Of a stretch of DNA of 64,000 nucleotides, positions 3,973-54,679 are shown one piece after another; positions within the stretch are counted from its first letter, which is position 1, and the number at the start of each line of letters is the position of its first letter. The stretch comes from Bryopsis sp. KO-2023 (taxonomy: Eukaryota; Chlorophyta; Ulvophyceae; Bryopsidales; Bryopsidaceae). Both the position numbers and the translations under genes were made by a program. The stretch spans positions 310,001-374,000 of the forward strand of contig BSYQ01000003.1 of assembly GCA_030272585.1 (NCBI GenBank). Direction: 5' to 3'. Below the pieces are notes generated by a model. The model was not told where the DNA came from. It saw only the letters and a program-made list of their open reading frames with translations, and did no database searches.

Positions 3973-5091
3973 TCAGTCCACCACTTCCCAACTCTGCATG
4001 GAATCTTCATTGGTGTGACTAAATGTTTCGTTATTTGAATTTCCAAACTGATCAATCAAAGAAGCCTCCGAAGGGGGCAAATCTTTTCCACCCCAAATGA
4101 GAACTTTTCCACGCCCAAAATTCCCCAATCTTTTCCAAGTGTTTACCGCCTCAGATGCAACGTAGCTCCCACCACCACCTCCAGGGGAGTCGTGGCCAGC
4201 ACCACCACCAGAATAGCCTCCCCCCCCCCACCAACAACGCCCCCTCCACTGCCAAACCCCCCTGTATCATTCACACCAGTAGTCGTCGGCTTTGCCAGCG
4301 CTTCAGGTCCTGCCTTCCATCCCAGACCACCTTCGTCCCCTCCATTGCTTACCCCATTGCCTCCATTCTTTCCACCCACACATTTTGAATTTGGACTACT
4401 TCCATCTTCATCCAAGTTGGCATCAGCACCATAAAACAAGCTATTAGGACCGCCACCACCACCTGCTGCCAGGAGCAAGCTCAGCTCTTTCTTTTTGAGA
4501 GCGACAAACGTACCTCCAGCACCACCTGTATATATCGCAGGTTTATGCCCAGTATACACTCTCGACATCCCTCCTGTCAATATTTGGACAACGTCACCAG
4601 CATTGAATTCAAACGGGCCCCCCACAATGGCACCAACACCACCCTTCGCCTTGTAGTTCTGGGCATTGACGTTGGGTGGATCCGCAGCCTTAGCACCCAT
4701 GGCCACAATGTGGTACCAGCCAGATTGGGGTACTTTCCATTCCTGCCATTTCTCCATGTCACGAGAATACTGAAAGGTGGCGGCAGGCCCTCCTTTGTCC
4801 TGTTTCAGATACTTCATGCAAGCTTTCGACACCCAGTTCATTTCGTACATTCTGGCTGCCACCATTACGTTGATGACATTGTCGTCATTTAAATCGCCAT
4901 CATCAGTGTAGCAGCAGCGCAAAATCCACTTCAGCGCTGCAGGCTCTACATCTTTCGCAGATACGAAATTAGTCGAATCCTTGCCGCATAATTCTCCACC
5001 AACACCTATCGCAGAGAAAACAAACTGAACAGTTGGTGGACGAACAGTGCGAGCAAATATCACTTGTAACATCGTTCTGTCTTCCCACCAT
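3973..5091 (-). pseudogene. BTB-GRD family pseudogene with most of the BTB domain deleted
   Basis: The family layout is present: start codon at 5089-5091 followed at once by an 83-bp intron (5006-5088, TAG acceptor), then exon 2 beginning GTGTTGGTGGAGAATTATGC, and a stop at 3973-3975 after SWEVVD. Compared with the copies at 30267-31524 and 56606-57868, about 150 bp is missing right after the first codons of exon 2, removing the front half of the BTB domain (GHSQNW to the stretch before GKDST). The deletion shifts the frame relative to the start codon. A cytosine run near 4220 has ten C against eight in the copy at 56606, which shifts the frame again inside the glycine-rich domain. The rest is well preserved, so inactivation looks recent. 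About 355 bp of its 5' flank is shared with the copy at 56606-57868. Confidence 0.8.
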
Positions 5092-7785: not shown

Positions 7786-8153
7786 CTTTGGCGAAGTGGA
7801 TGACGACAACGTTGTCAGCGTAATGATGGCAGCCGGAATGTACGAAATGGAATGGGTGGAAAAGGCCTGCATGAAGTACTTGAAAAAGGGCGCTGAGGTT
7901 CCACTGGCTGCCTTTAAATACTCCAAGGAAAATCAGAAATGGCTGGAATGGAAGGTCCCAGAATCCGGATGGTATCATTTGGTTGCCATGGGGGCAAAAG
8001 CTGCCGATCTGGCAAAGCTTGGTCAAGTTACTTGGTCGAAAGGCGGGGAAGGTGCAATGATTGGTGGATCCTTTCAATTGCAGGCTAGTGATGTTATCCA
8101 AATATTGACAGGGGGAATGTCAACGCTCTTGGTGGGGAGCACAAACAAAAATC
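7786..8153 (+). pseudogene. Truncated BTB-GRD copy (end of BTB and start of glycine-rich domain)
   Basis: This segment matches the copies at 8645-9907 and 35922-37183 from the GEVDDDNVVSVM stretch near the end of the BTB domain to the STLLVG stretch that opens the glycine-rich domain. The match begins without a start codon and stops at about 8153, where sequence matching the 5' flank of the next gene begins. STLLVG occurs in the copy at 35922 but not at 8645, so the fragment derives from a gene of the former type. It stays open in frame over the retained part, so it is young. It lies directly ahead of an intact gene of the same family and strand. Confidence 0.8.
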
Positions 8154-8644
8154 AGTCAAGGTCGTGTTTTTCTTTTCTACCCTTGTATCGCACTGCACGA
8201 ACAATCAAAGCCCAGACCGCAACACGCGCACTCACAACCAATAATACCACAGTCACGACACAACCGAACAGGCCAACAGCGCAGGATATGAGCACGCCGT
8301 CAAAACGACCCAGTCAAGGACAAAAAAAGATATTCGGGAACGAGGCTTTGTGCGTATTTGTGCATATATGTGTTCGTACACTATAGTTGCATCACGGGAT
8401 CACCATGGCAACTCCATCGCATGCGCATGCATGGATTCCTTTTCACACTTGTCCACTGCGTTTCGCGAAACAGCTGGCCGGTTTGGGGATTCGATAATCA
8501 CTGTGACGTAAGAGCTCGCTCTCGTCTTGTCCGCACCGGAACATCGCCAGCGGTTTCCCCAGCCCCTGTCCGATCTGAAGTGAGCCAGTGAGCGTTTCAT
8601 TGGTGATCTCGACATTTTGAATTTGCCGCAACCGTTATCGTTCA
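8154..8644. repeat. Duplicated 5' flank shared with 37184-37686 (inverted)
   Basis: About 490 bp ahead of the start codon match, in inverted orientation, the flank of the copy at 35922-37183. The match runs from CAGTCAAGGTCGTG to TATCGTTCAATG. One ATG in the block (at about 8288) is ATA in the other copy, so it is not a conserved start. The block probably contains the promoter and 5' untranslated region. Confidence 0.8.
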
Positions 8645-9907
8645 ATGGTAAGAGAACAACGGCAAGCAAATGTTCTTGACTGTTCAAGTGGCCGCTCGCA
8701 ATTTCGATTGTGTTGACACGAAACGTTTGGACAGGTGTTGTTGGAAAATTATGAAGGCCACCACCAAAACTGGGCGAAATGCTTCGACGACCCGGAAATG
8801 AGCGATGTCGTTTTCGAAGCCAAGGATGGCCAGATCTTTCATTGCGAGAAATTCGTGTTGGAGGTGGCCAGTCCCTATTTCAAGAAGTTGTTCGGTGGAA
8901 AGTGCGGAGGTCCAATAAAGAACCTCGAGGCGAAAGACGTGGACCCTGCGGCGCTGAAATGGATTTTGAGAGCGTGCTACACAGGGGACGGCGAAGTGGA
9001 TGACGACAACGTTGTCAGCGTAATGGTGGCAGCCGAAATGTACGAAATGGAATGGGTGGAGAAGGCCTGCATGAAGTACTTGAAAAAGGGCGCTGAGGTT
9101 CCACTGGCTGCCTTTAAATACTCCAAGGAAAATCAGAAATGGCTGGAATGGAAGGTCCCAGAATCCGGATGGTATCATTTGGTTGCCATGGGGGCAAAAG
9201 CTGCCGATCAAGCAAAGCTTGGTCAAGTTACTTGGTCGAAAGGTGGGGAAGGTGCAATGATTGGTGGATCCTTTGAATTCCAGGCTGGTGATGTTATCCA
9301 AATATTGACAGGGGGAATGTCCAGGCTTTACATGGTAGACAAGGATAAAAATCTCTTTGGTGGGGGGGGTGGTGGGACTTTCGTCGCCTTGAAAACGAAA
9401 GAGCTCTCCTTGATGTTAGCAGCAGGAGGTGGTGGGAGTTTTGACGGTAAGTTATACGGTGGCGATGGTAACTTGGATGAAAATGGAGGTACGTCTGATC
9501 CCACGTATATAGGAGGGAAGAATGGAGGCAACGGGACCGATAGAAACATTAATACCGGAGGTCTCGGATGGAAAGCTGGCCCTGCGGCGCTGGCAAAGCC
9601 AAGGGGTGCTGATGACAAAGATAATGGGGGGTTTGGTGGTGGAGGAAACAGGGATGGTGGAGGAGGAGGCTACTCTGGGGGCAGCGCTGGGTGGTATAAT
9701 GGTGGTGGAGGGGGTGGAAGCTATATTGCACCTCAGGCTGAAAACGTTTGGAAAAAAGTTGGGAGCTTGGGTCATGGAAAGGTTTTTGTTTGGAAAGGAA
9801 AAAATGTTCCCAAAGAAGAAATCTTTTTTCTGAAAGAGGTTGGTGACATTACTGTGCAAAGCCAAAGCAACATGGAATTGATTGATACTTGGGAAATCTT
9901 GGAATGA
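8645..9907 (+). CDS. BTB/POZ protein with ALK/LTK-type glycine-rich domain
   Basis: Exon 1 ends with the start codon (8645-8647), an 87-bp intron (8648-8734, GTAAGA to ACAG) follows, and exon 2 is 8735-9907. The 391-residue product has a BTB/POZ domain at about 14-126 (SDVVFEAKDGQIFHCEKF, then KYLKK). From about 139 to 352 it has a glycine-rich domain in the order WKVPESGWYHL, GGGGGGTFVAL, LMLAAGGGG, GGKNGGNG, GGFGGGG, GGGGGYSGG, GGGGGSYI, GHGKVFVW. That order and spacing follow the glycine-rich domain of ALK and LTK receptor kinases. BTB domains commonly form dimers or recruit cullin-3. No signal peptide or membrane segment is visible, so the protein is probably cytosolic or nuclear. The fusion's function is unknown. 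The copy at 35922-37183 is the closest relative. Confidence 0.9.
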
Positions 9908-10759: not shown

Positions 10760-13700
10760 CTACTCGGATACCCCTTTGTCATTTTTCCCCTCCTCTGAAA
10801 CTTCGGCCACCAGGTCAATTACAGGAGCCTTTGTTTCGGGACTCTTGTCTGGTTTTCCTCCACCATGCAATTTGAAATCGTCGGCATTTTCCTCTTCATC
10901 GTCCTCCTCCAAGTCTGAGGGCTCACTCAACAAAGGTACGACTGGAAGTTGAGGTTCGGGTGATGCAGAAGCTGCAGAGCTCCTGTATGATGATCTCGAA
11001 CGGTCTCCAGCTCTGGATTGTGACAGAATTGTTTTTTAAATATAAGAAAGTATCTGTTTGTTTTCCAGAATGCATCACATCTAGCCCCATCTGGCTATCC
11101 ACTGAACAAATCATTACGAGCAAATGTAGTCATATGGAGTGGTAAGCCAATTATTTTGTTGATGGGCTTCCTTTCTCTTTAATTGTTTATTTTAGCCTGA
11201 AACTGAGTGAACATAACAGAACAAAACATAACAAACGGCGAGACCACTGAAAGACAGAGCCAGCACTTTTTTCCATAAATTTTCTTCATTATTCCCCCCC
11301 CCCCCTCCAAAAACAAAGAAGGGTGGATACACCACGGATTCGGGAGACCTGTCATGAAAGAAAGCTGTTATCCATTTTTCCAAACAAGCGGGATGAAAGA
11401 ATATTTGGATCACCTGTTTTTGAGAACGGCCTCCTCTAATTCAGGGTCGGGTGAAATTCCGACTTCCTCCATTCTTTCGAGAATTTGGAGGGCTGAATCC
11501 GGGTATCCAGTGTCCAGACATATTCTGCACACCATCAACAAATCCATAAATGCAAAACATCTCGACGGCTGCTTTTGAACATGATTCTTTTATTTTTCAT
11601 TTTTGTGCTCCTACCTTGCGCAAGTGGTGAATGCAGCATACACTCTTTCCTTGTACATGGTTTCCCTTTTTCGTTTGGGCACCCTCTTGGACTCCCACAG
11701 CAAGCTGGAGATGGGGCCAGCAGAATAAGCGCCCCCCAAGAGTTTGGTCAAGGCCAGGGCCGATGCAGGGTCTTGCTCGGCAGTCACGGCATTCACCATG
11801 GTGTCGATATCCTCCAGCGTGCACATTTGGCCCAAGCTCCTCACGACTTCGGAAATGTTCACAGCCACCATTGCACCTGTGGTCACCCGAGTCGATCAGA
11901 AATACGATTTGATTAAAAAAACACCGAAAAATAAACAAAAACAGTGAAAAAAAATATCGAAGAAGAAAAAAAACCCAGTGAAGAGAAAAAAACAACCATT
12001 GATGATAAAAGTGAGATAAAAGTGTGAAACAAACAAACAAACAGGAGAGGTTCCAATTCTCTGTGAGACAAATGAAACTGGAAATTGCCAGAACAATATA
12101 TATTCGTGCGTTTTACTCAAAACATCAGAACATAAACAAAAATATCTTCACTCATATTTAGAACTATTTTGTGTGTACACAAAAATTTCGCACGAAAAAG
12201 TTCCTTAACCACCAATATTGCAACATCACACTCAGCAGGTTTGCTTTGGACTATTTCTAGACCATCATTTCACATCCAGGAAAAAAAACCCACAGGCACC
12301 CACTCACCCGACGTTTGATTGCTGAATTTAGTGGTTTCCACTGCGGAATCCAGCTCCAGAGAGTCTTGCCAGACCTCCTTCAATTCCTCGACCTTTCTTA
12401 CGGACAGCGATTCCAGATCATCGACATCAGCCAAGGGATCAATGGGATCATTTTCAACGGAAACCGTGGGATCTTTGTCCTCATCATCGTCACTGTTTGC
12501 CTCGGTGGTGGTTTCTGCCCCTTCTTGGATGAGGGCCCCATCCTCTTCATCTGGCCCCATGGATGACAGTGAATTCTCTGTCTCAGATCCCTCAGCAGTT
12601 TGATCCACGTTTTCATCATCCGCGTCCTCGTTTTCCTCCACGTCTGCCTCTGATGCTTCTGCTTTTGCAATCGATACATTTTCATTATTGCATTCGTTTC
12701 CATTATCAATGCCAAATAATGACACAAAAAAAACAGAAAGAAAGCTTGGTGTTTCACCTCTGTCTGCAGGTCTAAAAAAAACTCTTCTCAATCAGGTTGC
12801 CCCTGTTTTTTTTTGTTATTTTTTGGTTCAAACGGGAAGTTTTAAGTGTGGAGAATTTTATTGAGAAGCTTGAAAACTATTTCAGCTAGCCATTCATTGT
12901 TCCACTTTTCAGACAGATCCTCCCCCCAACAAAAAGGAAAACAGAAAATGAAAACAGAATAAAGAACGAGTACAGGGGCAGCACTTGCCCAATTTGATCT
13001 GTGACATCGACTACTTTGACAAATTTCAATTCGTAGTGATGGGCCCATGTCACTCAAGTAGTCTGTCTACCTGCTAATGCCTCCTCCATTCTGCGTAACA
13101 TATCCTCTTCAGTGATGGTTTTTCGCCTGACCTCCCGGCCTTTCTCAAAAGTAATCAGTTCTGTGACGACGTTTTTCTCAAAGGTCTCGGTCGGCCCCAG
13201 AATATCCATCAACTGCTGTTCTCTGTTTTCCCTTTCCATTTTTACTTTTTGTCGCTTCAAGGATTGCCTCCTTTTGATCTCATCCTTGATGCCCGGCCAT
13301 GCACTCCTAGAAACCTATGAAACCCCCCACACCCAAAAGACAACTTCTCAGCCCGAACAGATTCTACAGTCTTTTCGGATGTTTGCGTGGTGTTTTCTGC
13401 ATGGTTCTTTTCAAAAATGTGCCTATTTTTTTGCTCAAAAATAGTTTTTTTTTGTGTATCTCTTCTTCCTAAACGAATCTTTTTCCACCTTGACTCTTTG
13501 GTATAGATCTGCCCTGAGCCCATCAGTGGGAAGCCCTCTGGCCTCCAATTCTGCTTTCATTTGGGTGACAGATAATCGGCTGGGTGGAACGATTGTACCA
13601 TCTTCATCCACAGCACAATTGCAAAACCCAATCAAAACGTCATCCTCCCCCACTCTGGAAAAATAAAAACACGCACACACACACGAAAGTTGAAATAAAT

Positions 13701-16700
13701 AAGAGGGAAAAGGAAAAAAATAAATAAAAAAATTGGGGGGGTTCAAAATCAAGAAATCACAAAGAAGAATGAATTTGCCAGAAAATTTCGCTTAAAAAAA
13801 TGATCAGATGGAAGGATCGATGCAGGGGAGCATATATTGAAAGAATTTGATTCTACCTTCGCATTCGGTTTCCCATTTCCATGGGTTCTGCAGATGCGTT
13901 TTCAGACACTGCTGCAACCTGAAGCAAGTTTCAAAACAACGCAAAGAAAGGTTCACTTACAAACTATTTGAAACAAAGCATGCATTGGAAAACCAAAAAA
14001 AGGCTTGGGGGAAAACATAAAACGAAATATAAACACTTTAAAATACTCATCTGGCCATGTGGATGTCTATCGTCATTCTTTTCCAAATTTTAATGGATTT
14101 TGTTTTAATTCTGTGTTTTTCCTTCTGGGGTGAGTTTTTTTCCCTTGGTGGAAACCACCCACATAAACATCCTAGATATGTAAATTTTATTCCAGCAGCA
14201 ACTACTCTTCCAAAAAACTGAGAAATTAAAAAAAAAACTGCCGTCTTTCATATCATGCCAAAGCATTTACCTGCAATTTTGATAAGCGGTGAAACAGCCA
14301 ATCAGAAACAAAAGTGTTTCCTTTGGAGTTTGGTTCCATTACTGTTTCAGGCATTCCATAACCATCCAAAGCAATGGATTGCAACACTCGATACAAATCT
14401 ATTGGCAGTCCTTGTCCACTCAACTCCCCTGGAGCAAAAACAAAACACAGAAAAGGGCTTAAAAAGGGAGTGAAACACACAAACACACACAAATGTAAAA
14501 GTCCTATCGTTTAACTATTTAATTAATTTCAACAGCAAATGGGCTGCACGATGCCTACAGATCTCATTCGAGGAAAACAAAGGTGAAAATCTGTTCGTTC
14601 AACGGCTTTGATCGTGTGTTTCATTCTCTCTTTACACAAAATAAGGGGAAAAGTAGCAATACAAAAAACTGCCCAAAAACAGGAACAGCTTATATCTAAC
14701 CCAGCTAAACAATATGGACGAGGAGCAATACTGTGGCTTTCAAGATGAACTACAAAACTACACAGACAAAAGACACCACCTGATGGAAAAAAAGAAACGA
14801 AACACACACACACTTGGTTGGAACTCCTTGAGCGAGATATGGCCGGCTTGCCCAAATCACTCTGTTGTAAGAATTGCTCCGGACACACACAGACATGCAT
14901 CTTATTTATATATATCTGAGTACATTAATGCATTAATCAGTGGTTCTCACAGAGTAAATCAGGAAGTAGATAGTACACTAATTCTTCTCGAGCCGCCCCC
15001 GTTGCTTGTCCCACATTGTTGTCCAAGAAGATCTTGGTGGTTTCTCGAATTTTCCCCATCCTCAGTTGGGCCCTCAGCAAAAACGTCATGCTCATCGCGC
15101 TCGGCTTGAATTTGTTACTCAGTTGCATCCAGTATTTCATGAAAGTTCCAGATTCGTCGATATCCTCTGTTAAAAAAGCCCACAAACAAAAACAGGGGAA
15201 AGGGGATCTTAGTCATAAAAATAACAATAAAATCCAGTGCAACCACATAAATGATAAATCATCAGAATGTGAATTCAAAAGTGGAGTCGTTGCACTCCTG
15301 AAGCTCCACACTGAACCACTTTTCAATATACCGAGCAACTCACCATCCCAACTCTTCAACTGAGCCCTGAGCAAGGCATTGTAACTGGCCAAATTCGGCT
15401 CATCGATCAGCTCATACAGCTTTTGGAATTCCTCGAAATTCGCATCCGGATCCTTGGACACCATTTCCAGCAAGGGGTTCACATGGCCAGTCTCAATCTT
15501 CACCCCCGACTCAATCACTTCATCCAGCAGCTCAAACATCCAGGCTTTCCTACCGATGGCACCGTATTCTTTCATCAAAGCTGCATACAGATTGCTGTCT
15601 GGAAACCACTTGTGGTCTTTCCCCATTTCCAGATGGAGCATGGCGGCTTCTAGATCTTTGGTGTCCAGCAGGGATCGGACCATCATCAGCCAGCCTTGCC
15701 TTCCGTCGGCCCCAGCTCTCTTCATGGATGCCAGAATGGCCTCGGCTGTTTTCACATTTCCGTCTTTGACGAAAGCGTGGATGAGAACTAGGTAGCTTTC
15801 CGTTATGGGCATCACACCTGTTGTTGGAAAAATAGTGGCAAAAAAGAGTGAGAATTTCTAAAAGCGCAAATCTGGAGAATTAGGAAATAAAATCAGATTT
15901 TTTTTTTATCAGTTATTCTATTTTATTAAATGCTTTTTTTTTGGGGGGGGGGGGGGAGGGGGCAGAGGAAACAGACAAGACATGGAAAGTCAATTTGGCG
16001 TCTTAATTCTTGAAACTCGGTGTAGGATAAAAAAACAAAGAGAGGACAAAATCTATATGAAAATTTTATTGATAGGAATCCACTGGACAAAAAATATGAA
16101 AGGCAATTCACAAATAAAAAAAATTCTAATCATACCAACACAAAAAACAAGTTTTCACAACAGCAGCCCCACCCAGACAAGATATTCCAAAAATAAGCGT
16201 GTTAGTAAACCCCAAACATACCAGCATTGTGAGCCCTTCGAATGGCTTGCAAGGCCCCATTTGAATCCCCCGCTTTTACGTAAGCAAATATCACTCCATG
16301 ATAAGCCCTTGGCCCAGGCATGATTCCATCGGCAAACATATCTTGGATAACAGCCTCCGCCGACTCAGGCTTTCCTTTCTTTGCAGCCGCAAATAATCGC
16401 CTACCAATTGCAATATCATGCTAAATTTATCGAAAGAATTTGAACAAAAAAAAAAGATGAAAAAGGAAAAAAACAAAAAAAAGAGAAAGGATGGAGGATA
16501 GTTGCATAGATTTATATCATCAGAATATACGGTGGGCTAATTTTTCTCATAGTATTGTCAAATCAGGGAAATCAAAAACCAAATAGAGACACAGAGAACC
16601 TTCATTTAAGAAAAGAAAAGGGGGGGGGGTATTTTTCTTGACTTATGAGAGAGTTTTACACACAGGGCGGGGAAAGTTAAAAAAAAAACAAAAAAAAAAA

Positions 16701-18414: not shown

Positions 18415-18638
18415 TCGCAAACGGCAATCCCCACAAGAAGCGTGTATTTCCCGACGAGTCCTGAGCGATGAGACTGAAATGGAGGCACCTGGAAAAAATG
18501 TTCAAAATCGCCTAAAACGTCATCGAATGCCTTGTCGCACTTTTTGTACTCAACAACATACACCAAACAGTAGATTAGGTAGATAGTGATTCCAGAAGCG
18601 TGGCGGCTGTCCTCCTCTTCCTTCATCAACTCGGAATC
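18415..18638. promoter_or_regulatory. Divergent promoter region between PPR-SAP and SDR genes
   Basis: Only 224 bp separate the start codons of two divergently transcribed genes, so both promoters and 5' untranslated regions must lie here or overlap the first exons. I see no TATA box that stands out. The call rests on position alone. Confidence 0.5.
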
Positions 18639-21387
18639 ATGGCGGATGCGCGGTTTGGTCTTCCTGATCGCTGCTGCTTGGTGACAGGGGGCACGAAGGG
18701 AATAGGGAAAGAAGTGGTCGAAGAGCTGGGTGGCTTGGGCGCGAAGGTGATCGAATACATAAAACATCGGGTCCTCGCACGTAGGTTCGCGCCAAAACGG
18801 TCCAGGGAGAGAGATCTTTTCGCGCCCAAACTACAGGTCGCGGTTTCAGGCTTTATTTCGAAGATGCGTTGACGCCTTTTCGGCGCTCTTCCTGTCGCAG
18901 GTGTTCACCTGCGCTCGGACCGAAAAAGATCTGACGGAAGTTCTGGAGAGGTGGAGGTCGTCAGGGTTAGACGTTCAGGTAGAGAGAACCGGCTGCGTTG
19001 AATTCTTGGGCCGTGGATAATATCGTTTAGTGCATAATGCATGATGTTGATCGGCAGGGATGCATCGCTGACGTTTCTGATGAAGAAAGTCGTCAAAATC
19101 TGATGGAGAAGGTACTGATCGGGAAAAAAAATTCCAGCAGGCATTCGATTTTGAGGGAAGAGATTCACATTGTTGATTTTTTTTTCCTTTTTTAAAAGGA
19201 ATGCTTTCGGAATTGCCAACAGACATGTTCCTCTTCTCCCAAAACAAATGGCCAAACAGAAAAAAGACAAAGGAAAAAACAGTCAATAATGCATTTTTAA
19301 ATAAGATTTAAAAAAAGAAAAAAATGTATTTATACATAGATGCATCAAGGAACGGGGGAAGAAATAAGTGTACACTTTACATAGAGTCAATTAGATAGTT
19401 GTGAAAGAAACAAAAGCTCTTTTTTCTTTCTTGATGTGCGGTCCGATATAGCAATTGTTTTGGGGGAATTTTCTGAAGGTTTGAAAATTTTAAATTCTTA
19501 ACTGGACCTTCTCAATGTTTTGTTTGCAACAGGTGAAATCCGCGTTTGATGGAAGGCTGGATATTTTGGGTGGGTCCAACTTATATACAGTCTTTCTTGG
19601 ACATTCCAACTGTCTTACAATTGGAAGATAATTTCGCTGATATATATATATATTATAATTTTTTTGTGAATTTCCTTTGCATTCTGCTGAATCACCCCTA
19701 AAAGCTTCATCGTTTCATGTGCCAATTTCTTTTTCCTTTTGTTTTTGATTTCAGTCAACAACGTTGGATATAACATTCGAAAGACAACATTGGAGTATAC
19801 ATCCGAGGCAAGTGCTGGCGAAAAATCAATTTTCCAAAACAAAAAAACGCACGCAAGGGAAACCACCACTTTTCTTTTATTTCGGTTCCAGTGTTGGGGT
19901 GAAATGCCCGGGTGAATGGGTGCTATTGAACCACAACCAGCTGAGTAATTATCTAGAGTGCAGTTCAGAAGGGCTACATCTGATTCTTGGGATCCTGCCT
20001 TTTGATTCTGCCTTTCACGAGTGTCGTTTTTCTTTTTTTTTTCAGGATTTTGATGCGCTGATGTCCACCAATATCAAATCGGCCTTTGCCTTGTGCCAGG
20101 TGCGCGCGTCTTGAAATGAATTCTATTCATCGACACTACAACAAAAAAAAAGAGCCATACTTCTCCGCACTTTGCTGTTGAAATGCATCCGTCTCGCGGT
20201 CCAAAAATATGACCAAAATGAAATCAATCGAATGGACTGTGCCCTGTTGGTAAAGAAGATTTCACCGCAGAGAAGGGATGGGTGAGTTTTTTCTTTTTGA
20301 ATGTGTTTTCTCAAGAGTGAGAAGCCTTACTCATTCGCTGTGCAGATGAGAGACAGGACGGATCTTTCAATAGTTTCAGTAAAGTGTTAAAACTTTTTTG
20401 GGGGGGTTGGTTTGGGGTGAAAAACAGCTGTGCCATCCCATGCTGAAGCTGAGTGAACATGCTTCCATTGTTTTCTTATCCTCTGCGGTGGCTGCCGCAA
20501 GGGCCTCCAACACTGGAGTTCTTTACTCAATGTCCAAAGCAGCAATGAATCAAATTACGAAAAATCTGGCATGCGAATGGGCGAAGGATGGAATTCGAGT
20601 GAACGCTGTGTCACCATGGTACATCAAAACTGAATTAGCAAATCAGGTAGGCCATGGTTTTTTGGGTTTTTCTTTGCCTCACCCTGCGCATTAAATTTGT
20701 CGACTTTCACTTTTAATTAGTCGTTTTCCCTGGGTTTTTTGGTTTTTATATATTTTTTTAAATCTGGGATGCACTGTATTGTTGAAAGATGAGTTCAAAT
20801 GGCCGAAGGTTGTTTACTGGATTTCTTTTTTCTTTGTCTTTGTTCAATTGCGTATAAACACTGACCTGTTTGTTCCGGGTCCCCCCCTCCCCCTTGAAAA
20901 AATTTTAAAAAATAAATAACAAATAAAAAGAAAGAAAGAAACGACACTGTGGGGAATGTATGTAAAACAAGCATTCATTGAACAATATGAGGAATGTGTA
21001 GCATTGTTGTTGAATAGGTTTTGAGCAAGCCGGGGTACTCAGAAAGTGTCTGCAAGGAAACACCAATGAACCGTGTCGGAGAACCTAATGAGATTTCTGG
21101 TAAGCCCCAGTTCAATCTTTTGTTTGACAGATCAACATCGATTTCCACCGCCTGGCCTCCCTTCTTTCTCTCTATCCATCATGAGTTTTGTTTCTCAATT
21201 GCACATACCAAAAGCGTGAAAATGCCATTCTTGTCCATTTTTTGCAAGAACTCTGGCCCAATAGTTTTTTCTGTTTTCTTGTGACGCAGGTGTGGTGGCA
21301 TTTTTTTGTTCCAAAGCTGCAACTTTTATCACTGGACAGAATCTAAACGTCGATGGGGGCTACTCAGTCAGAGGTCTTAACTATTAA
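18639..21387 (+). CDS. Tropinone-reductase-like short-chain dehydrogenase
   Basis: Nine exons join with conserved phase: 18639-18746, 18901-18978, 19058-19111, 19533-19569, 19755-19807, 20046-20099, 20428-20646, 21018-21099, 21290-21387. They give 260 residues, the usual length of classical SDR enzymes. The N-terminus has the NAD(P)-binding motif TGGTKGIGKE. NNVG follows in the middle, then the catalytic serine in SIVFLSS and the YSMSK motif (YxxxK). The C-terminus has GQNLNVDGGYSV, as in plant tropinone-reductase-like SDRs. Family members reduce ketones with NADPH; the substrate cannot be told here. The fifth intron (19808-20045) has a GC donor, GAG|GCAAGT. The protein carries no targeting leader and is probably cytosolic. 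Confidence 0.9.
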
Positions 21388-22165: not shown

Positions 22166-25298
<3,133 letters not shown>

Positions 25299-26269: not shown

Positions 26270-28836
26270 TTAACCCTGCATGGTGTAATCGTACCTGACA
26301 AGGAGACCAAAAGAAAGCAGATGTCAATTGCTTGTCGAAATTCATTGAGCATTCGCTCCAGGAAAAGATGAAAAACCTTCAGGAAGAGAAAAGCGACCTT
26401 CTGGTTTCTTTGATTTGTTCTGTGAATTATCTGAATGGCTTAAAAAAAAGTCTCCTTCCCGAAAAAATCCCAAGGCGCAGGATAGATTTTTTAAATACAT
26501 ATTTTAAATGTAAATAAAAAGTAATGAGAAAGTCCCCAGAAAGAAACGAAAACAAATGAGCCGACAGGCAGGGCAATTGATCCCGTTAATCACAGGAATA
26601 TTCTCCTTTGGAAATTCCAAAAATACACGATCAACTTACTCGATTGTTGGAATGATGGATTGAATGAACTTCAGGAACAGCAGCAGGTAACTACAGAAAC
26701 GAAAACAAAAACTTGGGTCACTTGGGTTGTTCCGTTCAATTGATAGATTGCAATTCCGATGATCTGCTCATTCGACTAGATTCTGAAACACAACAGAAGG
26801 CTGTCAGTTTCAAAAATTAATGCTGTCACACCCAAGACAAGAAAAGACAACAGACTCAGTTCCTTGTCCGCGTGACTGACTTTCCCATTTCGTACTGCCA
26901 ATACGCTCCACAGATACAATTAGAATAAGCCCAATCTAGATTATGGGGTGGAAATAAATACACAATGAGCAACTGGATAATTCCCTCCCTGTGGGCTACT
27001 CAAATGGCTTGTTCTTGCCAATTCACCCTCCCTGATTATATATTTATGACCCACCCTCTTGAAAAACGCCACGTACAAAAACAAAGAAAAAGGAAACCCA
27101 AAGAAAACCACCCACAACAGACAAACGCTAGGAGCCGATCGATCAAAGACCAACAAACCTATCATTTCCAAACCAGGTCAAGATGGTCGTGGTCACCACA
27201 CCACTAGAGCACCGCAATGTGGTTGAGGGACTTACTGTTCCACTGAGAATTCCCCTCGCTCGGCAACCAGCATGTCCCCGAGCGTTTTCATGGTGCTTGC
27301 ATGCTTGCATGGATGAATGGATGCCGCCATGATGCCTAAATTTGGATGCCGATCCCAAGTGATGGTATCCCCAGCATGGTCCGCAGAAACATCCTCGTAC
27401 ACTTCGCGCATGGACAGCGCCTTGTCCTGGCTGAAACCCACCAGCCAGAATCGAGGGACCCTGTAATACTTGTCCCAAGTGATGTGTAGGTCGTAGTGTC
27501 GTTGGCCGGGAGGGGCAACGTTTGCTGGAACAGCAGCATCATCCTGGCAGCGATTCAGAGTGGTGTCCTTATTTGGTAATATTTTTTCTTCTCCCCCACA
27601 AAAAAAACACACCACGAGTATCGTGGTTTCACAGCTCCATGATGATTTTGTTTTTCTTGTCCCTGCTTACCTCCCCCTCGGAGGCCGATGCAACTTCCGC
27701 CTCGGCGCCCTCTACACCAGATGTGGATGCACCTCCAACAAATTCAGCAGTAACCCACTCCTCCCCCCCATCATCTTGCTCCCCTGCTAAGCCTTTCACC
27801 TCACAACTATCCCCATACTCATTTGCCCTCCGCCTGCTGGGAACTGGACAGACATGGACACCACACCACTGTCGGCATCCCCCCGTATTTTGAATATGAA
27901 AGAATATTCAAGTGGATATTCCCAGGAGGGAAGGGTGTCCACTAAATACTGTTCAACAGAAACTGAAGTTTCTGAATCTCATTCTTGAGATGCGAAAACG
28001 AAAAATGAAAAAAATGTAGTCTCCTTGAAATGGAAATCTCCTGTCTGTTTCCTCATTCAATGGGGATTCAGAAAAAAAAAAAAAAAGATAAATGTGAAAT
28101 TCCTTATAGATCTGGAGTTTGCGCAAATTGTTCAAATTTGTGCAGATTCTGTTGTTTGGGTCTGTTTTTTGGCAGCACCTCTGCGAACAATCAGGAACTG
28201 TTTGTCTTTTGGAAGGTGCGGTTTGGCCTTCTTGGCATCCCCAGCTGACCTGATGACCAAAAACATAAAAAAAAATCATCGACCAGATAAAACTCAAAAG
28301 AATACCAAACAGGAAGCCACCTCACGCAGAATAAGTCGCAGCAAATTTTTATCAAAAGTTTGCAACATGGTATTTTCTCCATCCAGTCTCAATATCGCTC
28401 AAGGTAAAAAGCCAGCATCCAGCAGCTGAGTTTTTGTCAGTATTGCTTAGAAGAGGGCAGAACCCAAAGGGCAGTTTTCCAAGGATAGTGATTTACTGGC
28501 CACAGCATGCACAGGACAACAGATAAGCTGCAGATAACGAGACAGACTTCTGTACCATTGCCAAGCCGGAAATGCTGTCACAAGGTAGTTTCCAGCTCGT
28601 TCGAACTCCACAGGCGTCAGTGTCTGTTCCCCACGAGAAAAGACATCAGCATCAAGATCAACTTTCAACGACAGCGCCCCAATCAAAGCACTCGCCACAG
28701 TGGCAATAAGCCAGGTAGAAGTGCGAACTCTACGTAGTCGTACCCTTTCCTCCTCGAACGTCGACGTTGTGGGCACGCCAGTCAGCTTCTCGACACCACC
28801 CTTGTACACGCTGTGCACAAAATGCCTGATATTCAT
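26270..28836 (-). CDS. ATG3: ATG3, E2-like enzyme of autophagy
   Basis: Seven exons with conserved phase: 28744-28836, 28556-28623, 28179-28249, 27671-27783, 27236-27567, 26640-26690, 26270-26294; about 250 residues. ATG3 transfers ATG8 to phosphatidylethanolamine. The N-terminus has TLTPVEFERAGNYLVTAFP and WQWSAGD, then HLPKDKQFLIVRRG. The catalytic core has YDLHITWDKYYRVPRFWLVG, EDVSADHAGDTITW and the active-site cysteine in SIHPCKHASTMKTL. The C-terminus is YLLLFLKFIQSIIPTIEYDY followed by TMQG. The protein is shorter than the usual 300 or more residues because the flexible region (only GEQDDGGEEWVTAEF and a short acidic stretch) is reduced. Exon 5 could begin 24 bp later at a better acceptor (GCTGCCAG), removing eight residues in frame. 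Confidence 0.93.
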
Positions 28837-30266: not shown

Positions 30267-31524
30267 ATGGTGAGAGGAAGGAGCGGCGTTACGACTCGTA
30301 ACTGACGATATAAGTGATATTTGCTTCCACCGAGTGTTCAGTTTGTTTGCACTGCGACAGGTGTTGGTGGAGAACTACGCAGGCCACAGCCAAAACTGGC
30401 AGCAATGCTTCAACGACCCAAAACGGAGCGACGTGGTTTTGGAGGCCAAGGACGGCCAGACATTTCATTGCGAGAAATTTGTTCTGAGGGTGGCAAGTCC
30501 ATACTTCGAAAGGTTGTTTTCTTGCGGCAAGGATTCGACTAAATTCGTATCTGCGAAAGACGTGGAGCCTGCAGCGCTGAAGTGGATTTTGCGCTGCTGC
30601 TACACTGCTGATGGCGATTTAAATGACGACAATGTCATCAACGTAATGGTGGCAGCCAGAATGTACGAAATGAACTGGGTTTCGAAAGCTTGCATGAAGT
30701 ATCTGAAACAGGATAAAGGGAAGCCTGCCGCCACCTTTCAGTATTCTCGTGACATGGAGAAATGGCAGGAATGGAAAGTACCCCAATCTGGCTGGTACCA
30801 CATTGTGGCCATGGGTGCTAAGGCTGCAGATCAAGCCAAGGTCAATGCCCAGCTGTACAAGGCAAAGGGTGGGATTGGTGCCATTGTAGGGGGATCCTTT
30901 CAATTCAATGCCGGTGATATCGTCCAAATATTGACTGGGGGGATGTCAACGCATTACCCTAAGAGTCCAGGTTACACAGGTGGTGCTGGGGGTTCATTTG
31001 TTGCTCTCAAGAAGGAGGACCTCACCCTGCTCCTGGCAGCAGGTGGTGGTGCCAGCATCAATGGCACTTACTATGGTGCTGATGCTAACTTGGGTGAAGG
31101 TGGAGTAGGAAATGCACACTGTGCAGGTGGAAAGAACGGAGGCAATGGGGGAAACAATGGAGTACACAAAGGTGGTCTGGGATGGAAGTCAGGACCTGTG
31201 GCGCTGGCAAAGCAATCAACTACTGGTGTTGATGGTACGGGGGGTTTTGGTGGAGGAGGGGACATTTGTGGTGGAGGGGGAGGTTACTCTGGTGGTGGTG
31301 CTGGCTACAACGCCCCAGCAGGTGGCGGTGGCAGCTACATTGCCTCTGAAGCAGTGAACAGCTGGAAAAGATTGGGGAACTTTGGGCATGGAAAAGTTGT
31401 TATTTTTGGCGGGAAAGACTTGCCGCCTTCGGAGTCCCCTCTTGTTGATCAATATGGAAATCCAAATGATGAGATACTTCCTCAACTCGATGAAGAGTCC
31501 ATGAAATGGGAAATGGTGGACTAA
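30267..31524 (+). CDS. BTB/POZ protein with ALK/LTK-type glycine-rich domain
   Basis: The start codon is 30267-30269, the intron 30270-30360 (91 bp, GTGAGA to GACAG), exon 2 30361-31524; 388 residues. The BTB domain (SDVVLEAKDGQTFHCEKFVL through KACMKYLKQD) fills about residues 14-125. The glycine-rich domain follows with WKVPQSGWYHIVAMGAKAAD, LLLAAGGGA, GGKNGGNGG, GGFGGGGD, GGGGGYSGGGA, GGGGSYI and GHGKVVIF. This copy belongs to the VLVENYAGHSQNW subfamily with 32280-33609, 56606-57868 and the pseudogene at 3973-5091. The next gene is a tandem copy on the same strand about 750 bp downstream, so a local duplication is likely. Confidence 0.9.
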
Positions 31525-32279: not shown

Positions 32280-33609
32280 ATGGTGAGAGGATAGAGCGAC
32301 GTTACGACTCGTAACTGACGATATAAGTGATATTTCCTTCCACTGAGTGTTCAGTTTGTTTTCTTTGCGACAGGTGTTGGTGGAGAACTACGCAGGCCAC
32401 AGCCAAAACTGGCAGCAATGCTTCAACGACCCGAAGAGAAGCGATGTGGTGTTCGAAGCCAAGGACGGCCAAACCTTTCATTGTCAGAAATTCGTTTTGG
32501 GGTTGGCGAGTCCATACTTCGATAAGCTGTTTTTTTCCTGCAAGGACTCGGCCAAGTTCGTCGCGGCGAAAGAGGTGGACCCTGCGGCGCTGAAGTGGAT
32601 ATTGCGCTCGTGCTACACTGCAGACGGCGAATTGAACGACGATAACGTTATCGGCGTTATGGTGGCAGCGAAGTTGTACAAAATGACCTGGGTGTCCAAA
32701 GCTTGCATGAAATATCTGAAACAAGACAAAGGAGGGCCTGTGGCTACCTTTCAGTATTCCCGAGACATGGAGAAATGGCAGGAATGGAAAGTACCCCAAT
32801 CGGGCTGGTACCACATTGTGGCCATGGGTGCAAAGGCAGCAGACAGGGCCAAGGTCAATGCCCAGTTGTACAAGTCGAAGGGTGGGATTGGTGCCATTGT
32901 GGGTGGATCATTTCAATTCAATGCTGGTGATATGGTCTTAATGTTGACTGGGGGGATGTCGACGCATTACCCTAAGAATCCAGGTTACACAGGTGGTGCT
33001 GGAGGTTCGTTTGTTGCTCTCAAGAAGGAGGACCTGACCCTGCTCCTGGCAGCAGGTGGTGGTGCCAGCATTAATGGCACTTATTATGGTGCTGATGCTA
33101 ATTTGGGTGAAGGTGGAGTAGGAAATGCACACTGTGCAGGTGGAAAAAACGGAGGCAACGGGGGAAACAATGGAGTGCACAAAGGTGGTCTGGGATGGAA
33201 GGCAGGACCTGTGGCGCTGGCAAAGCGATCGACTGCTGGTGTTGACGGTACGGGAGGGTTTGGTGGAGGAGGAGACGTTTGTGGTGGAGGGGGAGGTTAC
33301 TCTGGTGGTGGTGCCGGCCAAAACGCCCCAGCAGGTGGGGGTGGGAGCTATATTGCCTCTGAAGCGGAGAACAGCTGGAAAAGATTGGGGAACTTTGGGC
33401 ATGGAAAAGTTGTTATTTTTGGCGGGAAAGACTTGCCGCCTTCGGAGTTCTCTCACGCTGATCAGTTCGGAAATCCAAATAACGAAACACTCGGTCAAAC
33501 GAATGAAGAGTCCATGCATAGCAGGGAAGTGGTGGACAAAAAACATGTTTTTCACTCCCGGGCCCTTATTGCAACCGTTTCGAGTATTTTTCGAAAAGGA
33601 AGTCGATAG
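32280..33609 (+). CDS. BTB/POZ protein with ALK/LTK-type glycine-rich domain, extended C-terminus
   Basis: The start codon is 32280-32282, the intron 32283-32373 (91 bp), exon 2 32374-33609; 412 residues. The domain order equals its tandem neighbour at 30267-31524, and the glycine-rich part is nearly identical to it. The BTB part differs more (FFSCKDSAKFVAAKEVDPAA against FSCGKDSTKFVSAKDVEPAA). The stop used by the other copies right after VVD or VVE is absent, and translation runs on for 23 residues to a TAG at 33607-33609. This tail has no counterpart in the other copies, so it is probably read from former 3' untranslated sequence. Confidence 0.88.
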
Positions 33610-35921: not shown

Positions 35922-37183
35922 TCACTCCATCATTTCCCAACTGTCAATCGATTCCTCATTGCTTTGGGCCCCTATATTAACGACACCAACCTCTTCAAGA
36001 AAAAGGGTTTCTTTAAGAGGAACATTTTTTCCTTTCCAAACAAAAACCTTTCCATGACCCAAGCTCCCAACTTTTTTCCAACCGTTCTCAGCCTGAGGTG
36101 CAATATAGCTGCCACCCCCTCCAGCACCATTATTACACCCAGCACTGCCCCCTGAGTAGCCGCCTCCTCCACCCCACAAGTTTCCTCCACCACCAAAACC
36201 CCCATTGTCACTATCACCTCCAAGTCTTGGTTTTGCCAGTGCTATGGGGCCAGCTTTCCATCCAAGGCCTCCTATACCAGCTCCATTAGCGGTCCCATTG
36301 TCCCCATTTTTCCCTCCCACACACTTTGCATTGGCACTCGTTCCACTTTTATCCAAACTACCATCGCCACCATAGTGGTTGAGGACTATGCTCCCACCTC
36401 CCCCCGCTGTCAAAAGCAAGGAAAGCTCTTTCTTTCCCAAGGCAACAAAAGTCCCACCACCCCCTCCACTGTATAAATTTTTGTATTTGCCCCCCACCAA
36501 GAGCGTTGACATTCCCCCCGTCAATATTTGGATAACATCACCAGCCTGCAATTGAAAGGATCCACCAATCATTGCACCTTCCCCGCCTTTCGACCAAGTA
36601 ACTTGACCAAGCTTTGCCTGATCGGCAGCTTTTGCCCCCATGGCAACCAAATGATACCATCCGGATTCTGGGACCTTCCATTCTTGCCATTTCTGGTTTT
36701 CCTTGGAGTATTTAAAGGTAGCCAGTGGACCCTCAGCGCCCTTTTTCAAGTACTTCATGCAGGCCTTTTCCACCCATTCCATTTCGTACATTCCGGCTGC
36801 CACCATAACGCTCACAACATTGTCGTCATCCACTTCGCCGTCCCCTGTGTAGCACGCTCGCAAAATCCATTTCAGCGCCGCAGGGTCCACGTCTTTCGCC
36901 TCGACGTACTTTGTTGGACCTCCGCACTTTCCACCAAACAACTTCTTCAAATAGGGACTGGCCACCTCCAACACGAATTTCTGACAATGAAAGGTTTGGC
37001 CGTCTTTGGCTTCGAAAACAACATCGCTCCGTTTCGGGTCGTTGAAGCATTGCTGCCAGTTTTGGGTGTGGCCTTCATAATTTTCTAACAACACCTGTCC
37101 AAACGTTTCGTATCAACACAATCGAATCGCGAGCGGCCACTTGAACAGTCAAGAACATTTGCTTGCCGTTGTCATCTTACCAT
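35922..37183 (-). CDS. BTB/POZ protein with ALK/LTK-type glycine-rich domain
   Basis: The start codon is at 37181-37183, the intron 37095-37180 (86 bp, GTAAGA to ACAG), exon 2 35922-37094; 391 residues. The BTB domain (SDVVFEAKDGQTFHCQKFVL) and glycine-rich domain (WKVPESGWYHLVAMGAKAAD, GGGGGTFVAL, LLLTAGGGGS, GGFGGGGN, GGGGGYSGGSA, GHGKVFVW) match the gene at 8645-9907 closely. Between GGMSTLLVGG and the next glycine run it matches the truncated fragment at 7786-8153 instead, which suggests exchange or separate copying among copies. Its 5' flank repeats that of the 8645 gene in opposite orientation. Confidence 0.9.
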
Positions 37184-37686
37184 TGAACGATAACGGTTGC
37201 GGCAAATTCAAAATATCGAGATTACCGGCCACACAGAGAGAAAAGTGAAACGCTCACTGGCTCACTTCAGATCGGACAGGGGCTGGGGAAACCGCTGGCG
37301 ATGTTCCGGTGCGGACAAGACGAGAGCGAGCTCTTACGTCACAGTGAATATCGGATCCCGAAACCGGCCAGCTGTTTCGCGACACGCAGTGGACAAGTGT
37401 GAAAAGGAATCCATGCATGCGATGGAGTTGCCATGGTGATCCCGTGATGCAAGTATATTGTACGAACACATACATGCACAAATACGCACAAAGCCTCGTT
37501 CCCGGATATCTTTCCTTGTCCTTGACTGGGTCGTTTTGACGGCGTGCTGATATCCTGCGCTGTTGGGCTGTTCGGTTGTGTCGTGACTGTGGTATTATTG
37601 GTTGTGAGTGCGCGTGTTGCGGTCTGGGCTTTGATGGTTCGTGCAGTGCGATACAAGGGTAGAAACGAAAAACACGACCTCGACTG
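37184..37686. repeat. Duplicated 5' flank shared with 8154-8644 (inverted)
   Basis: About 500 bp upstream of the start codon match the flank of the copy at 8645-9907 with scattered substitutions and small indels. The match ends at 37686. The block likely carries the promoter of this subfamily. Nothing else is seen up to the MORN gene at 37844. Confidence 0.8.
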
Positions 37687-37843
37687 ATTAAGGAAGTATA
37701 AAGGCACAAAAGCTGTCAAGAGGAAGCGCCAGAAACGAAAAGAGGATTGCTGCGAAACAGATATCTAGAGACAACCAGAGTTCAACACGAATCAAGGAAG
37801 CGAAGGCAAAAGTTGCAGCTTGCAAGAAAACAACTATCAATGT

Positions 37844-47675: not shown

Positions 47676-50600
47676 TCACAGGCTTCCAGTCTTTCTCGTT
47701 TGCTCCCAAGAAGCTGGAGGAATTCGACTGGATTCAATGAAACACCCTCCTTTCCTGACCCACTGCAGCCATGCCTTCCAATCATTGCTGGAAGCGAGCG
47801 TTTTGGGATCACCTAACACCACCAAACCCCTGAAAACATAACATGATATCTGTCAGACTAGTCTGCCGACGTCACGAGTTGTGAACGGGGCAGGATATTG
47901 CCGCCGCCAGGTTCACAGACATCTATCTAAAATCTTGCACAGAGGCAACACCAGGAGAAAACTGGTCCCTTTTCACGTGAAAGAAAGGTTCAGCCTTGGT
48001 TTGATTCATCCACCTTCTTGGTCTCGTGATAGCCACGTTCAAACGGCGAGCGTCCGACACGAATCCCAGTTTTCGACGAGGATTGCATCGAACAGCGCTG
48101 ACAATCACCACATCTGCTTCCCGACCTTGGTAGGCATCCACAGACGAAATCGCAATTTTCGCGCTCTTGGGAAAATGGTGCCTGCACCGTTTCAACGCTT
48201 TCTCCAGATGAGTCATCTGGCCACGATATGGTGTGAGAATAGCAACATCCGTGACATCCCCTGCACACAGGAAACTCCATGTCAAACATAAGTTAAACAC
48301 AAATAAGAATGCACTCAAGGAGGGCCATGATACCAACCTGGTGCCAGTACATGGGAAAGAACGCGCAAAGCCATGGCTGCCTCCATTTCATTCTTGTAGG
48401 AAGGAGCGGATTGCATTTCATTAACCAACTTCTCTTTTCCTTGGCAAACCACCAACAGCACCGGCTGCTCAGGATTCGGCCACATGATGCCTTTTGGAAC
48501 GGGCCTGTGCGCTCCATCGATGCCGGTCTTCAATTTTCCTCCGTAGAACCACTGGCTTGCAAAAGCGCTGATCTCTGGATGCATTCGATATTGGGTGTCC
48601 AGAAGTCGTGGCTTCAAACCTGAACCACCCCCAAAAAAAGCGTAAGAAATCAGGACTGAAAAGAGAAAAGAACACCACCGGGGTGGAGCAGCCTGCTGGA
48701 TCTTACCCCTCATCACTAAACGATCGAAGAGAGTGACCTCCAGTCCAGCATCGACCGCTGTCTGAGAAATGACTGTTGGGGGCAACTGCCGTGGATCACC
48801 AGCCATCACCAAGCACTCTACCCCTTGAACGAGAGGCACCAGGGTTGCTGGCTCGGTGGATTGCGTCGCTTCATCGACTATTACCATCCGAAAATGCATG
48901 TTGTTCAGATCTCTACCGCCGGCTCCGTTGCATGTACAAGCCACAACCTACAACTTCATCAGATCAATTTCTTAGTTGGAGAACAGGCAACCATCTGGGG
49001 TACGCGTTTACATAAGCCCAGTCTATTTTCATAGAATTTTTTGAACCTCCAAACAAGAAAAATTCTGCGGGACATTCAAAACCACAGCTATTTGAGTGAA
49101 CCCATCAGCACTAGTGGTAGAAGCCCTCAGCACCCAGCCACGCAAATAACCTCACTATTGAGACAGAAACACATTGATGCATTCTTGGACATGGATTAAG
49201 CAGGAAATGTGTTTTGGCATGAGTATACCTCGCAGGTTTTCAGAACTTCTTGATACGCCTTTTTCATTAAACTGCTGGCTTCTTTTCTGCACTGTCGAGC
49301 TCGATGCTTCAATTCTTTTCTCTCCTTTTGGCTGCCTGCCTAAACACTCGAACGTCAGATAAAAGAATCCACACAAGGGGAACACTGTTGTTGTTTTTTT
49401 CTGCTCCAAGTTTCCTGCCATGTGGCACCCCTCCCAAGAAAAGTTAGTTTCCCACCTTTCGCGACAGCGAAAGCCTGTCCAATTCTTCAGCTTCCTTTTG
49501 CATTTGTCCAGACCATTGCCCCCATTGGGTTTCCATGGCTCTACCATCCAATGTAGCATGCATGAGACTGTCCCTGACCTTTGCAGGGTTCCCCACCCTG
49601 ACGACTCTCAGGTTCTTTTTGACAAGACCCTCCACTATATTATCGACGGCTGCATTGGTGTCAGCACATGCCAGAACGGGTCCAGTGGAAGCCTCCGGGA
49701 CAGCTCGATTTGCCAAGCAAACCACTGTCAATAGAGTCAGCAAAGTCCACGTCTTGCCGGAGCCTGAAATAAGCGAATAACAAACAATCATATGCCTGTA
49801 TGTATAAGTGTGAACAACACCTAGGCCGAGTGGAAATGATAGGATTGTGCTATTGGCTCGGAAACCTACATGTAAATCTAAAAGTCCCTGTTCAAGGGAA
49901 AAACATGCATATCGGATGTGCGGTGGGGGTTGAAAAGAGCAGGCGATGGACAAGGGCAAGCACACCACCATCAATAGACAGTCTGTGAAGGGGTCGATCG
50001 ATGCACAGAACCTCACCTGGGGGTCCTTGCCACAATGTCAAAATCTGTTTCTGTGAAAGAGCCACAGCAAGTTTCTGGCTGTGGTTTAAATTCGTCAAGC
50101 TTCGGAGGTGTTTCCCCGATTCTTTCCGCCATCGCTCGTTTTCAACCCAAGGGGGACAGTTGTTTTGGACCAGACTGGTGGGGTAATCTAATCCAATGAT
50201 GAAAGCATGGATGACTGCCATCGGGAGGGTGCCTGTGCAAGTTCCTATCTGGTCCAAAGCTTCCAGCTGTCGTTTCTCTGTGGCGCTCCGTAAGCTGGTA
50301 TCCAGCCGCCATTTTGACTCTACAGCCAATTGTATGTAAAAAATTAGAGATCCAGGGAATGAGAAGATGTTCATCCAAAAACCACACTTGCAGCACCCCA
50401 GTCTTGGAAGCAGGATTCCAGCCCCCAAAAGAGATCCGCTTGATTTTTGAATGGATAGTCTAATATTAAATCTCTCCTGATTTGGTTAAGAAACAAGAAT
50501 TTTAGGTGACTAAGCAGTGGGCACAATAGTTCTAAGGCTTACTTTTGAGATCCAGCATATTTAGACGATCTGCACATTCAGCATCCAGCACAACAGTGAT

Positions 50601-51745: not shown

Positions 51746-51961
51746 TCGTTCAAGGGGGCATGCGCCGACAAGCAGCAGATGCAAAATCTCGGCCCCCACC
51801 TCGAAAATTAAAAATGAACTGCGCTGCTGCCAGAATCTCGTAATCTTGTACGCAATCGCACCGCTGGGCCCAACGGGACCTGCGTCAGTCCTCACCCACT
51901 GCGAGCCAACCCCAGTGGAATAAAGCGTCAATAGACTGCCTCAACAGATTGTTTGGTATAC
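51746..51961. promoter_or_regulatory. Divergent promoter region between helicase and thiolase genes
   Basis: The two start codons lie 216 bp apart on opposite strands, so the control regions of both genes must be here or overlap their leaders. Both encoded proteins carry presumed organelle-targeting leaders. No motif stands out. Confidence 0.5.
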
Positions 51962-54027
<2,066 letters not shown>

Positions 54028-54336: not shown

Positions 54337-54679
54337 TTGTTGGCAGGGTCACAGAACCCCAAAACACCAAGAAAGAAAACCCAACACTTATTTGAAAAAA
54401 TACAGACTTGCGCGCGCAACACGTCCCCTGTTGCAGTGAATGCACGATCAAAAAGATCAAAAGATCTGAACACGACATGCGGGCCTAAGCCGAACGAATC
54501 TCGTCTTCTTGAGCGATATTTGCTGACGGCATCGCCAATCTCCCAACTTTGGTCTCGTTGGTCGGACTCGATGGGTGCGCCAGCCAGAAGCTGGGATGAA
54601 GGAATGCGCGCGCGCGCAGCCCTCAATCTCTTCTGGTGCGAGAGGTTGATCAAACAACCCACCCCCAACCGACTTGCTC

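Follow-up and report, generated by a model that had tools for sequence, protein, structure and literature searches.

A local family of BTB proteins carrying a glycine-rich domain related to that of ALK in the green alga Bryopsis sp. KO-2023

Introduction

The glycine-rich domain (GRD) of ALK is usually met as part of an animal receptor. In a 64,000-nucleotide stretch of the Bryopsis sp. KO-2023 genome (contig BSYQ01000003.1, positions 310,001 to 374,000; hereafter the window, meaning this whole stretch, whose coordinates are used below), a domain of this kind instead follows a BTB domain, with no kinase and no membrane part. The locus raises the questions of whether the likeness to ALK is homology or only shared glycine richness, to which wider group of proteins such a domain belongs, and what a duplicated family of BTB proteins could be doing with it.

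Results

Five intact genes of the family were found in the window, here called g1 to g5 by position. The first, g1 (8645–9907, plus strand), consists of an ATG at 8645–8647, an intron at 8648–8734 (GT...AG) and a second exon at 8735–9907, and its protein ends in WEILE. The same arrangement is found in g2 (30267–31524, plus strand; ATG 30267–30269, intron 30270–30360, exon 2 30361–31524), which ends in WEMVD, g3 (32280–33609, plus strand; ATG 32280–32282, intron 32283–32373, exon 2 32374–33609) with the tail SREVVD, g4 (35922–37183, minus strand; ATG 37183–37181, intron 37180–37095, exon 2 37094–35922), which ends in WEMME, and g5 (56606–57868, minus strand; ATG 57868–57866, intron 57865–57776, exon 2 57775–56606), which ends in WEVVE. 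Common to all five is a layout of ATG, a GT...AG intron of 86–91 nt and an exon opening with GTGTTG, and because this layout recurs in every intact copy we infer the intron and a first exon that very likely contributes the ATG alone. The exon-2 protein of g1 is made up of a BTB domain (residues 17–118), a GRD (residues about 136–353; 9140–9790, plus strand) with a predicted TNF-like strand region and glycine stem-loops, and a C-terminal tail to residue 390. In g3, positions 33539–33609 (plus strand) read on beyond the stop position of the other copies and the tail tryptophan is lost.

A first-pass annotation of the window had described a multigene family fusing BTB to a glycine-rich domain, with five intact genes and one pseudogene. 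The five open exons bear out the fusion, the family and the number of intact genes, but the broken copies number two. One of these (about 3973–5005, minus strand, with the BTB-bearing frame at 4146–5072) lacks BTB up to about its midpoint, and its frame breaks at a run of G inside the GRD; the remaining 3' piece ends in SWEVVD. The other (7790–8152, plus strand) holds the end of BTB and the start of the GRD, is 96% like 36477–36839 and is truncated inside the GRD, where it is joined to a block (8150–8424, plus strand) that is 96% like 37415–37689, the upstream region of g4. The motif series running from WKVP to GHGKV, also described at first pass, holds in its order, with letters that vary from copy to copy: GGAGG[ST]FVAL is found in three of the five intact copies, LLLAAGGGA in two, and LLLTAGGGG and GGKNGDNG in one each. 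GHGKV is present in all five, and the broken copy at 3973–5005 reads GRGKV.

The intact proteins are 59–79% identical to g1 and fall into two types, g1 and g4 forming one and g2, g3 and g5 the other. The dN/dS was 0.08–0.41 in all 10 pairs of intact copies, the BTB and GRD halves alike, and the intact copies are therefore under purifying selection. Segments seem to have been exchanged between copies, including the neighbors g2 and g3, since the dS of this pair drops from 0.89 in the BTB half to 0.25 in the GRD half, and since g4 begins like a copy of the other type (g2, g3, g5).

Elsewhere in the window we observed a SAP-domain exon (13438–13791, minus strand), a PPR exon (15216–15815, minus strand), short-chain dehydrogenase exons (18579–20691, plus strand), exons of a GH32 (invertase-like) enzyme (22169–24798, minus strand), a UPF1-like helicase exon (AAA_11/AAA_12; 48318–48944, minus strand), a thiolase exon (51953–52594, plus strand) and a large single-exon DUF4246 protein (54674–56083, plus strand; E 1.6e-51). 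Introns and genes such as the helicase, the GH32 enzyme and ATG3 (see below) mark the window as eukaryotic. No Rfam family and no tRNA were found within the 64 kb.

The BTB/POZ domain (PF00651) was identified in all five intact copies with 70.7–76.6 bits against a Pfam cutoff of 20.5 (E 2e-21 to 1.5e-19). Among the seven sequences scanned, six were above the cutoff, namely the five intact copies and the broken frame 4146–5072, and the short fragment was below. The Pfam scan of the copies gave no BACK domain and no kinase domain, and an NCBIfam search with two of the proteins gave no match. The copies are taken to be cytosolic because the protein begins directly with BTB.

The GRD was harder to place. 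In PF12810, the Pfam family of the ALK/LTK domain, none of the five copies reached the cutoff of 24.5 bits; g1 was best with 21.8, followed by 15.4, 10.9 and 6.6 with g5 unlisted, so that four of the five were listed at E ≤ 10 and two at E < 0.05. A profile of the five window GRDs searched against PDB matched seven distinct sequences at E ≤ 10, all of them ALK, although weakly (best E 0.045). With a joint profile, built from three phage proteins and the five GRDs of the window and not including ALK, all nine PDB matches at E ≤ 10 were ALK, LTK or scd-2 and the best reached 3.8e-13. The ALK/LTK profile match predicted at first pass thus failed for single copies at the Pfam cutoff and held for the joint profile.

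Mere glycine richness was ruled out as the source of this likeness by controls in which every glycine was held in place and the other residues were shuffled: none of nine shuffles of the g1 GRD matched any Pfam family at E ≤ 10, none of seven GRD shuffles matched the phage families phrog_22713 and phrog_7388 (two gave unrelated matches, E 3.4 and 2), and the score of the window profile against two pieces of human ALK taken together was reached by none of 2000. Taken singly, piece 1, which is not glycine-rich, gave a score that was again reached by none of 2000 shuffles, and the score of the glycine-rich piece 2 was equalled by 5 of 2000. We also used a profile of 45 prokaryotic and viral rows, without ALK or window rows, which was aligned through the window profile and in which the ALK pieces took no part. 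It scored the human ALK pieces at 50.9 and 42.3 bits, neither of which was reached in 1000 glycine-fixed shuffles per piece (maxima 10.7 and 24.0), and the window copies at 173–185 bits, a range that is inflated because the rows were aligned through the window profile. As judged from sequence profiles and shuffle controls, the likeness of the GRD to the ALK domain is homology, and on this point the first-pass annotation was right.

The window GRD shares with ALK/LTK (PF12810; PDB 7lrz, 7n00, 7nx0, 7lir) the co-linear strands W.VP and G.F...D...IL.G and the glycine blocks, with GG[FY]GGGG and GGGGY.GG in the same order. Unlike the ALK domain, which lies on the secreted side of a receptor tyrosine kinase, it comes after BTB in proteins where no signal peptide was seen, is without the N-terminal FT..GPTQ stretch and passes the PF12810 cutoff in no copy.

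ALK is, however, not the nearest match found for the window GRD, since phage families match it better by profile score. Both phrog_22713 (best 2e-15) and phrog_7388 (best 8.9e-14) were matched by all five GRDs; in the phage library these families, with GRD matches of 2e-12 to 2e-15, are annotated as function unknown. A 54-residue piece of human ALK matched the same two at 5.7e-7 and 4.4e-6, respectively. The cyanophage S-CREM1 protein SCREM1_65, at first a mere lead at E 4, was then recovered as a member of phrog_22713 (1.6e-26). Its hhalign alignment with the window GRD had a probability of 97.5 and E 7e-12, with 36% identity over 185 columns, against 73.0 (E 3.1e-5) and 85.8 (E 5.3e-6) for the two human ALK pieces, an unequal contest because these are only pieces. 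In PDB, 9 of the 11 matches of the S-CREM1 protein were ALK, LTK or scd-2 (best 3.9e-7) and the other two were STK11, and a Pfam scan of this protein gave no family. The members of the two phage families (such as S-CREM1 SCREM1_65 and S-SZBM1 gp050) gave the closest matches found, as ranked by profile score, with glycine blocks that align end-to-end, but they are phage proteins without BTB and with the upstream FT... stretch present. The S-SZBM1 gene lies in a tail-fibre cluster, adjoining tail-fibre and tail-fibre-assembly genes.

By tblastn against phages and plasmids, where the low-complexity filter of BLAST masks glycine runs, the window GRD gave nothing at E ≤ 10. The full g5 protein hit six phage records at E 0.7–4, all inside the BTB part, an ALK piece had no match in phages, and scans for close relatives with narrow sequence patterns confirmed none.

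The link between phage proteins and the ALK domain is already known in print: the tail fibre gp24 of the myocyanophage Pam3 has been solved, and its authors noted a likeness to C. elegans ALK with an RMSD of 2.6 Å over 125 Cα (PMC9608196). Compared by its published description, gp24 combines a TNF-like with a glycine-rich domain in which the stems are conserved and the tips vary, as proposed here for the window GRD, but belongs to a trimeric fibre with an alpha-helical shaft (PMC9608196). It was absent from our PDB profile matches and from the Foldseek matches listed.

Relatives were widespread in prokaryotic and viral sequences, in searches whose alignment contained the window GRDs themselves. 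At least 91 were confirmed in prokaryotic genome contigs, with titles mostly of Bacteroidota and a few of archaea and others, and at least 136 in IMG/VR, and 79 loci were kept from each. Three of the loci (L007, L017 and L022) come from metagenome bins titled Klebsiella pneumoniae, a label by title only, and on one viral contig (L004, 3958–5569, plus strand) the GRD gene is followed by two more glycine-rich proteins with the pattern TWTKP...VQGGGGGG. Among 10 relatives scanned with PF12810, 6 passed the cutoff, 2 matched below it and 2 had no match. Partner domains were found in 6 of the 10, comprising PKD, fn3, Ig-like, lectin-like (Laminin_G_3) and secretion-tail (Por_Secre_tail) domains, and for this reason we regard these relatives as probable surface or secreted proteins. 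The bacterial PF12810 surface proteins (such as those of loci L012, L008 and L041) share the domain with the window proteins, but join it to PKD, fn3, Ig-like or Por_Secre_tail domains and are apparently exported. The strict pattern FT..[TS]G.GPTQ precedes W.VP in 50 of the 101 prokaryotic and viral W.VP sites having 75 residues upstream, and no window copy has it between BTB and WKVP. No BTB was found in the 4455 mechanical ORFs of 162 loci, all on prokaryotic or viral contigs.

Glycine-rich domains of eukaryotes have been described before. A 2010 study reports a common glycine-rich domain in Trichomonas BspA proteins, Flavobacteria, and Clostridium difficile and its phages (PMC2843621), and PF12810 has been reported in three proteins of a fungus (PMC4859500). 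By description, the Trichomonas vaginalis case resembles ours in a glycine-rich domain that spans a eukaryote, Flavobacteria and phages and in locally duplicated genes, and differs in that the domain is fused to leucine-rich repeats and in that some of the proteins have a signal peptide (PMC2843621). In the open-licence PMC literature, we found no report of a BTB domain and such a glycine-rich domain fused, whether in connection with ALK, algae or protists. Within this literature and the prokaryotic and viral contigs searched, the combination of BTB and GRD looks new; the novelty lies in BTB as the platform and in the local array, the module itself being already known. On its sequence distribution, this module is a widespread and mobile one, apparently for recognition, of which ALK is one user. 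Because phage and bacterial relatives match and the likeness of phage proteins to ALK is in print, the module on BTB is not a transplant of an animal receptor domain. The first-pass view of it as specifically a signalling-receptor domain found no support, as matches to phage and bacterial proteins are stronger than those to human ALK and phages use it in tail fibres.

Structure prediction was of low confidence. AlphaFold2 with the five sequences gave a mean pLDDT of 39.9 for the GRD (below 50 in the glycine region) and 34.3 for the whole protein. The low-confidence GRD model has strands at 2–5, 10–17, 40–47, 52–57, 79–85, 90–96, 204–210 and 215–220, and at its pLDDT of 39.9 the glycine helices did not resolve. 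When this model was compared with PDB by Foldseek, ranks 1–9 were all ALK chains (E 2.2e-3 to 0.19, none ≤ 0.001) and the matches listed after rank 9 were mostly TNF-family chains. The model agrees with a TNF-like sandwich, short of proof. Since the FT..GPTQ stretch is absent before W.VP, the sandwich of the window GRD may lack one or two strands, or may be completed by the linker or a neighbor. In BFVD, the top match of the same poor model was a protein of Pyramimonas orientalis virus (E 2.1e-3, none ≤ 0.001), and the matches include giant-virus and phage glycine-rich proteins. The best 50 BFVD rows also contain five phage proteins named 'receptor protein-tyrosine kinase', likely a misannotation that apparently stems from the ALK-like glycine-rich domain alone.

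Variation among the copies is not evenly spread. In the GRD, variable residues gather between the glycine blocks, with 51 adjacent pairs of them observed against 37.1 expected, a number reached in 0 of 5000 permutations, whereas variable sites in BTB cluster mildly (19 against 14.4 expected, 211 of 5000 permutations). The dN/dS of the stem-loops was 0.36–0.38 against 0.08–0.21 for BTB in three of the six pairs examined, and 0.12, 0.20 and 0.15, with no clear excess, in the other three. It exceeded 1 in none of the six; positive selection is thus unproven, given this ceiling and the three pairs with no clear excess. Tips that change faster are what a stem-and-tip binder would show, and the GRD may well be one.

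Discussion

What might a BTB protein do with such a module? The explanation that we favor as a whole, with roughly even confidence, is that of a family of cytosolic recognition proteins, in which BTB provides pairing, the tips of the GRD provide binding and the bound material is handed over to degradation. By homology, BTB would pair two chains, and the beta-strand part would carry a rigid stem, rich in glycine, with loop tips that bind a specific target. Binding by tips is likewise suggested by homology, as it has been proposed for the tips of a cyanophage tail fibre and as the ALK domain binds cytokines. Because the copies are duplicated and their tips diverse, different copies may recognize different or varying targets. 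In the weakest of these steps, the bound target would be passed on either to autophagy through the WxxL-like tail or to a ubiquitin ligase through BTB.

The ubiquitin route can be stated more narrowly, as a cullin-3 adaptor family in which the GRD binds a substrate, BTB binds Cul3 and the substrate is ubiquitinated; we regard it as unlikely. It draws on the PDB relatives of the BTB part by sequence, which include ZBTB17, Keap1, BTBD6, KLHL and KBTBD2. Several of these, among Keap1, KLHL and KBTBD2, are known Cul3 adaptors, and BTB adaptors contact Cul3 through a phi-x-E motif. In the window copies, however, the loop after the LF motif offers a possible phi-x-E in only one of five (YVE in g4, in an approximate register), the alignment with Keap1 places K, D, S, T and K where Keap1 reads QGMEV, and no copy has a BACK domain by Pfam. 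The recruitment of cullin-3 suggested at first pass therefore found no support, with phi-x-E not conserved and BACK missing from the Pfam scan.

The other route would make the proteins selective-autophagy adaptors, in which BTB multimerizes, the GRD binds cargo and a C-terminal W-E-x-[LIV] binds ATG8; we judge this reading improbable. Three of the five intact copies end in a WxxL/I/V core after acidic residues (WEIL, WEMV and WEVV), the 3' piece of the broken copy at 3973–5005 has WEVV, and this motif recurs while the tail as a whole changes fast. W[DE].[LIV] occurs in the last eight residues of only 1 of 890 ORFs of the relatives' loci, and the looser W..[LIV] in 25 of 890, although these background ORFs are mechanical and prokaryotic or viral. 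The window also encodes an ATG3 active-site domain (27235–27666, minus strand; PF03987, E 1.3e-30), the E2 of ATG8 conjugation. The human BTB proteins KBTBD6 and KBTBD7 have LIR cores of the W type, WVRV and WVQV, at residues 668–671 (PMC7297954). Given the length of these proteins, the cores lie near the C-terminus; the two proteins resemble the window family in this C-terminal core and differ in having Kelch repeats in place of the GRD. Nevertheless, the motif is short and the paralogues are not independent, one intact copy reads WEMM and another has lost the tryptophan (REVV in g3). The tail can alternatively be read as an EEVD-like end of the TPR-binding type. Given the cores WEIL, WEMV and WEVV and the precedent of KBTBD6/7, the link to ATG8 is a testable but unproven option within the recognition family that we favor.

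Similarly improbable in our estimation is a structural or scaffolding glycine-rich protein without specific recognition, the tips of which would vary because they are unconstrained. This would fit a dN/dS below 1 everywhere tested and glycine-rich runs prone to length change. The strong purifying selection on strands and non-glycine positions and the homology to recognition modules of ALK and phage fibres argue against it.

The most far-reaching version, to which we attach little probability, is that of diversified intracellular receptors. A module of the tail-fibre/ALK type would have come from bacteria or viruses and been arrayed with interchange between copies; its tips would sense intruding viral, bacterial or damaged material, and BTB together with the ATG8 motif would lead this material to degradation. 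If this were true, the family would supply a receptor, immune-like or for quality control, made from the type of module that phages use on their hosts.

In sum, if the tips of the recognition family bind targets inside the cell, the window would offer naturally duplicated variants from which to read how the tip of a glycine stem determines specificity, and the non-animal sequences open the question of the origin of the ligand-binding domain of ALK.
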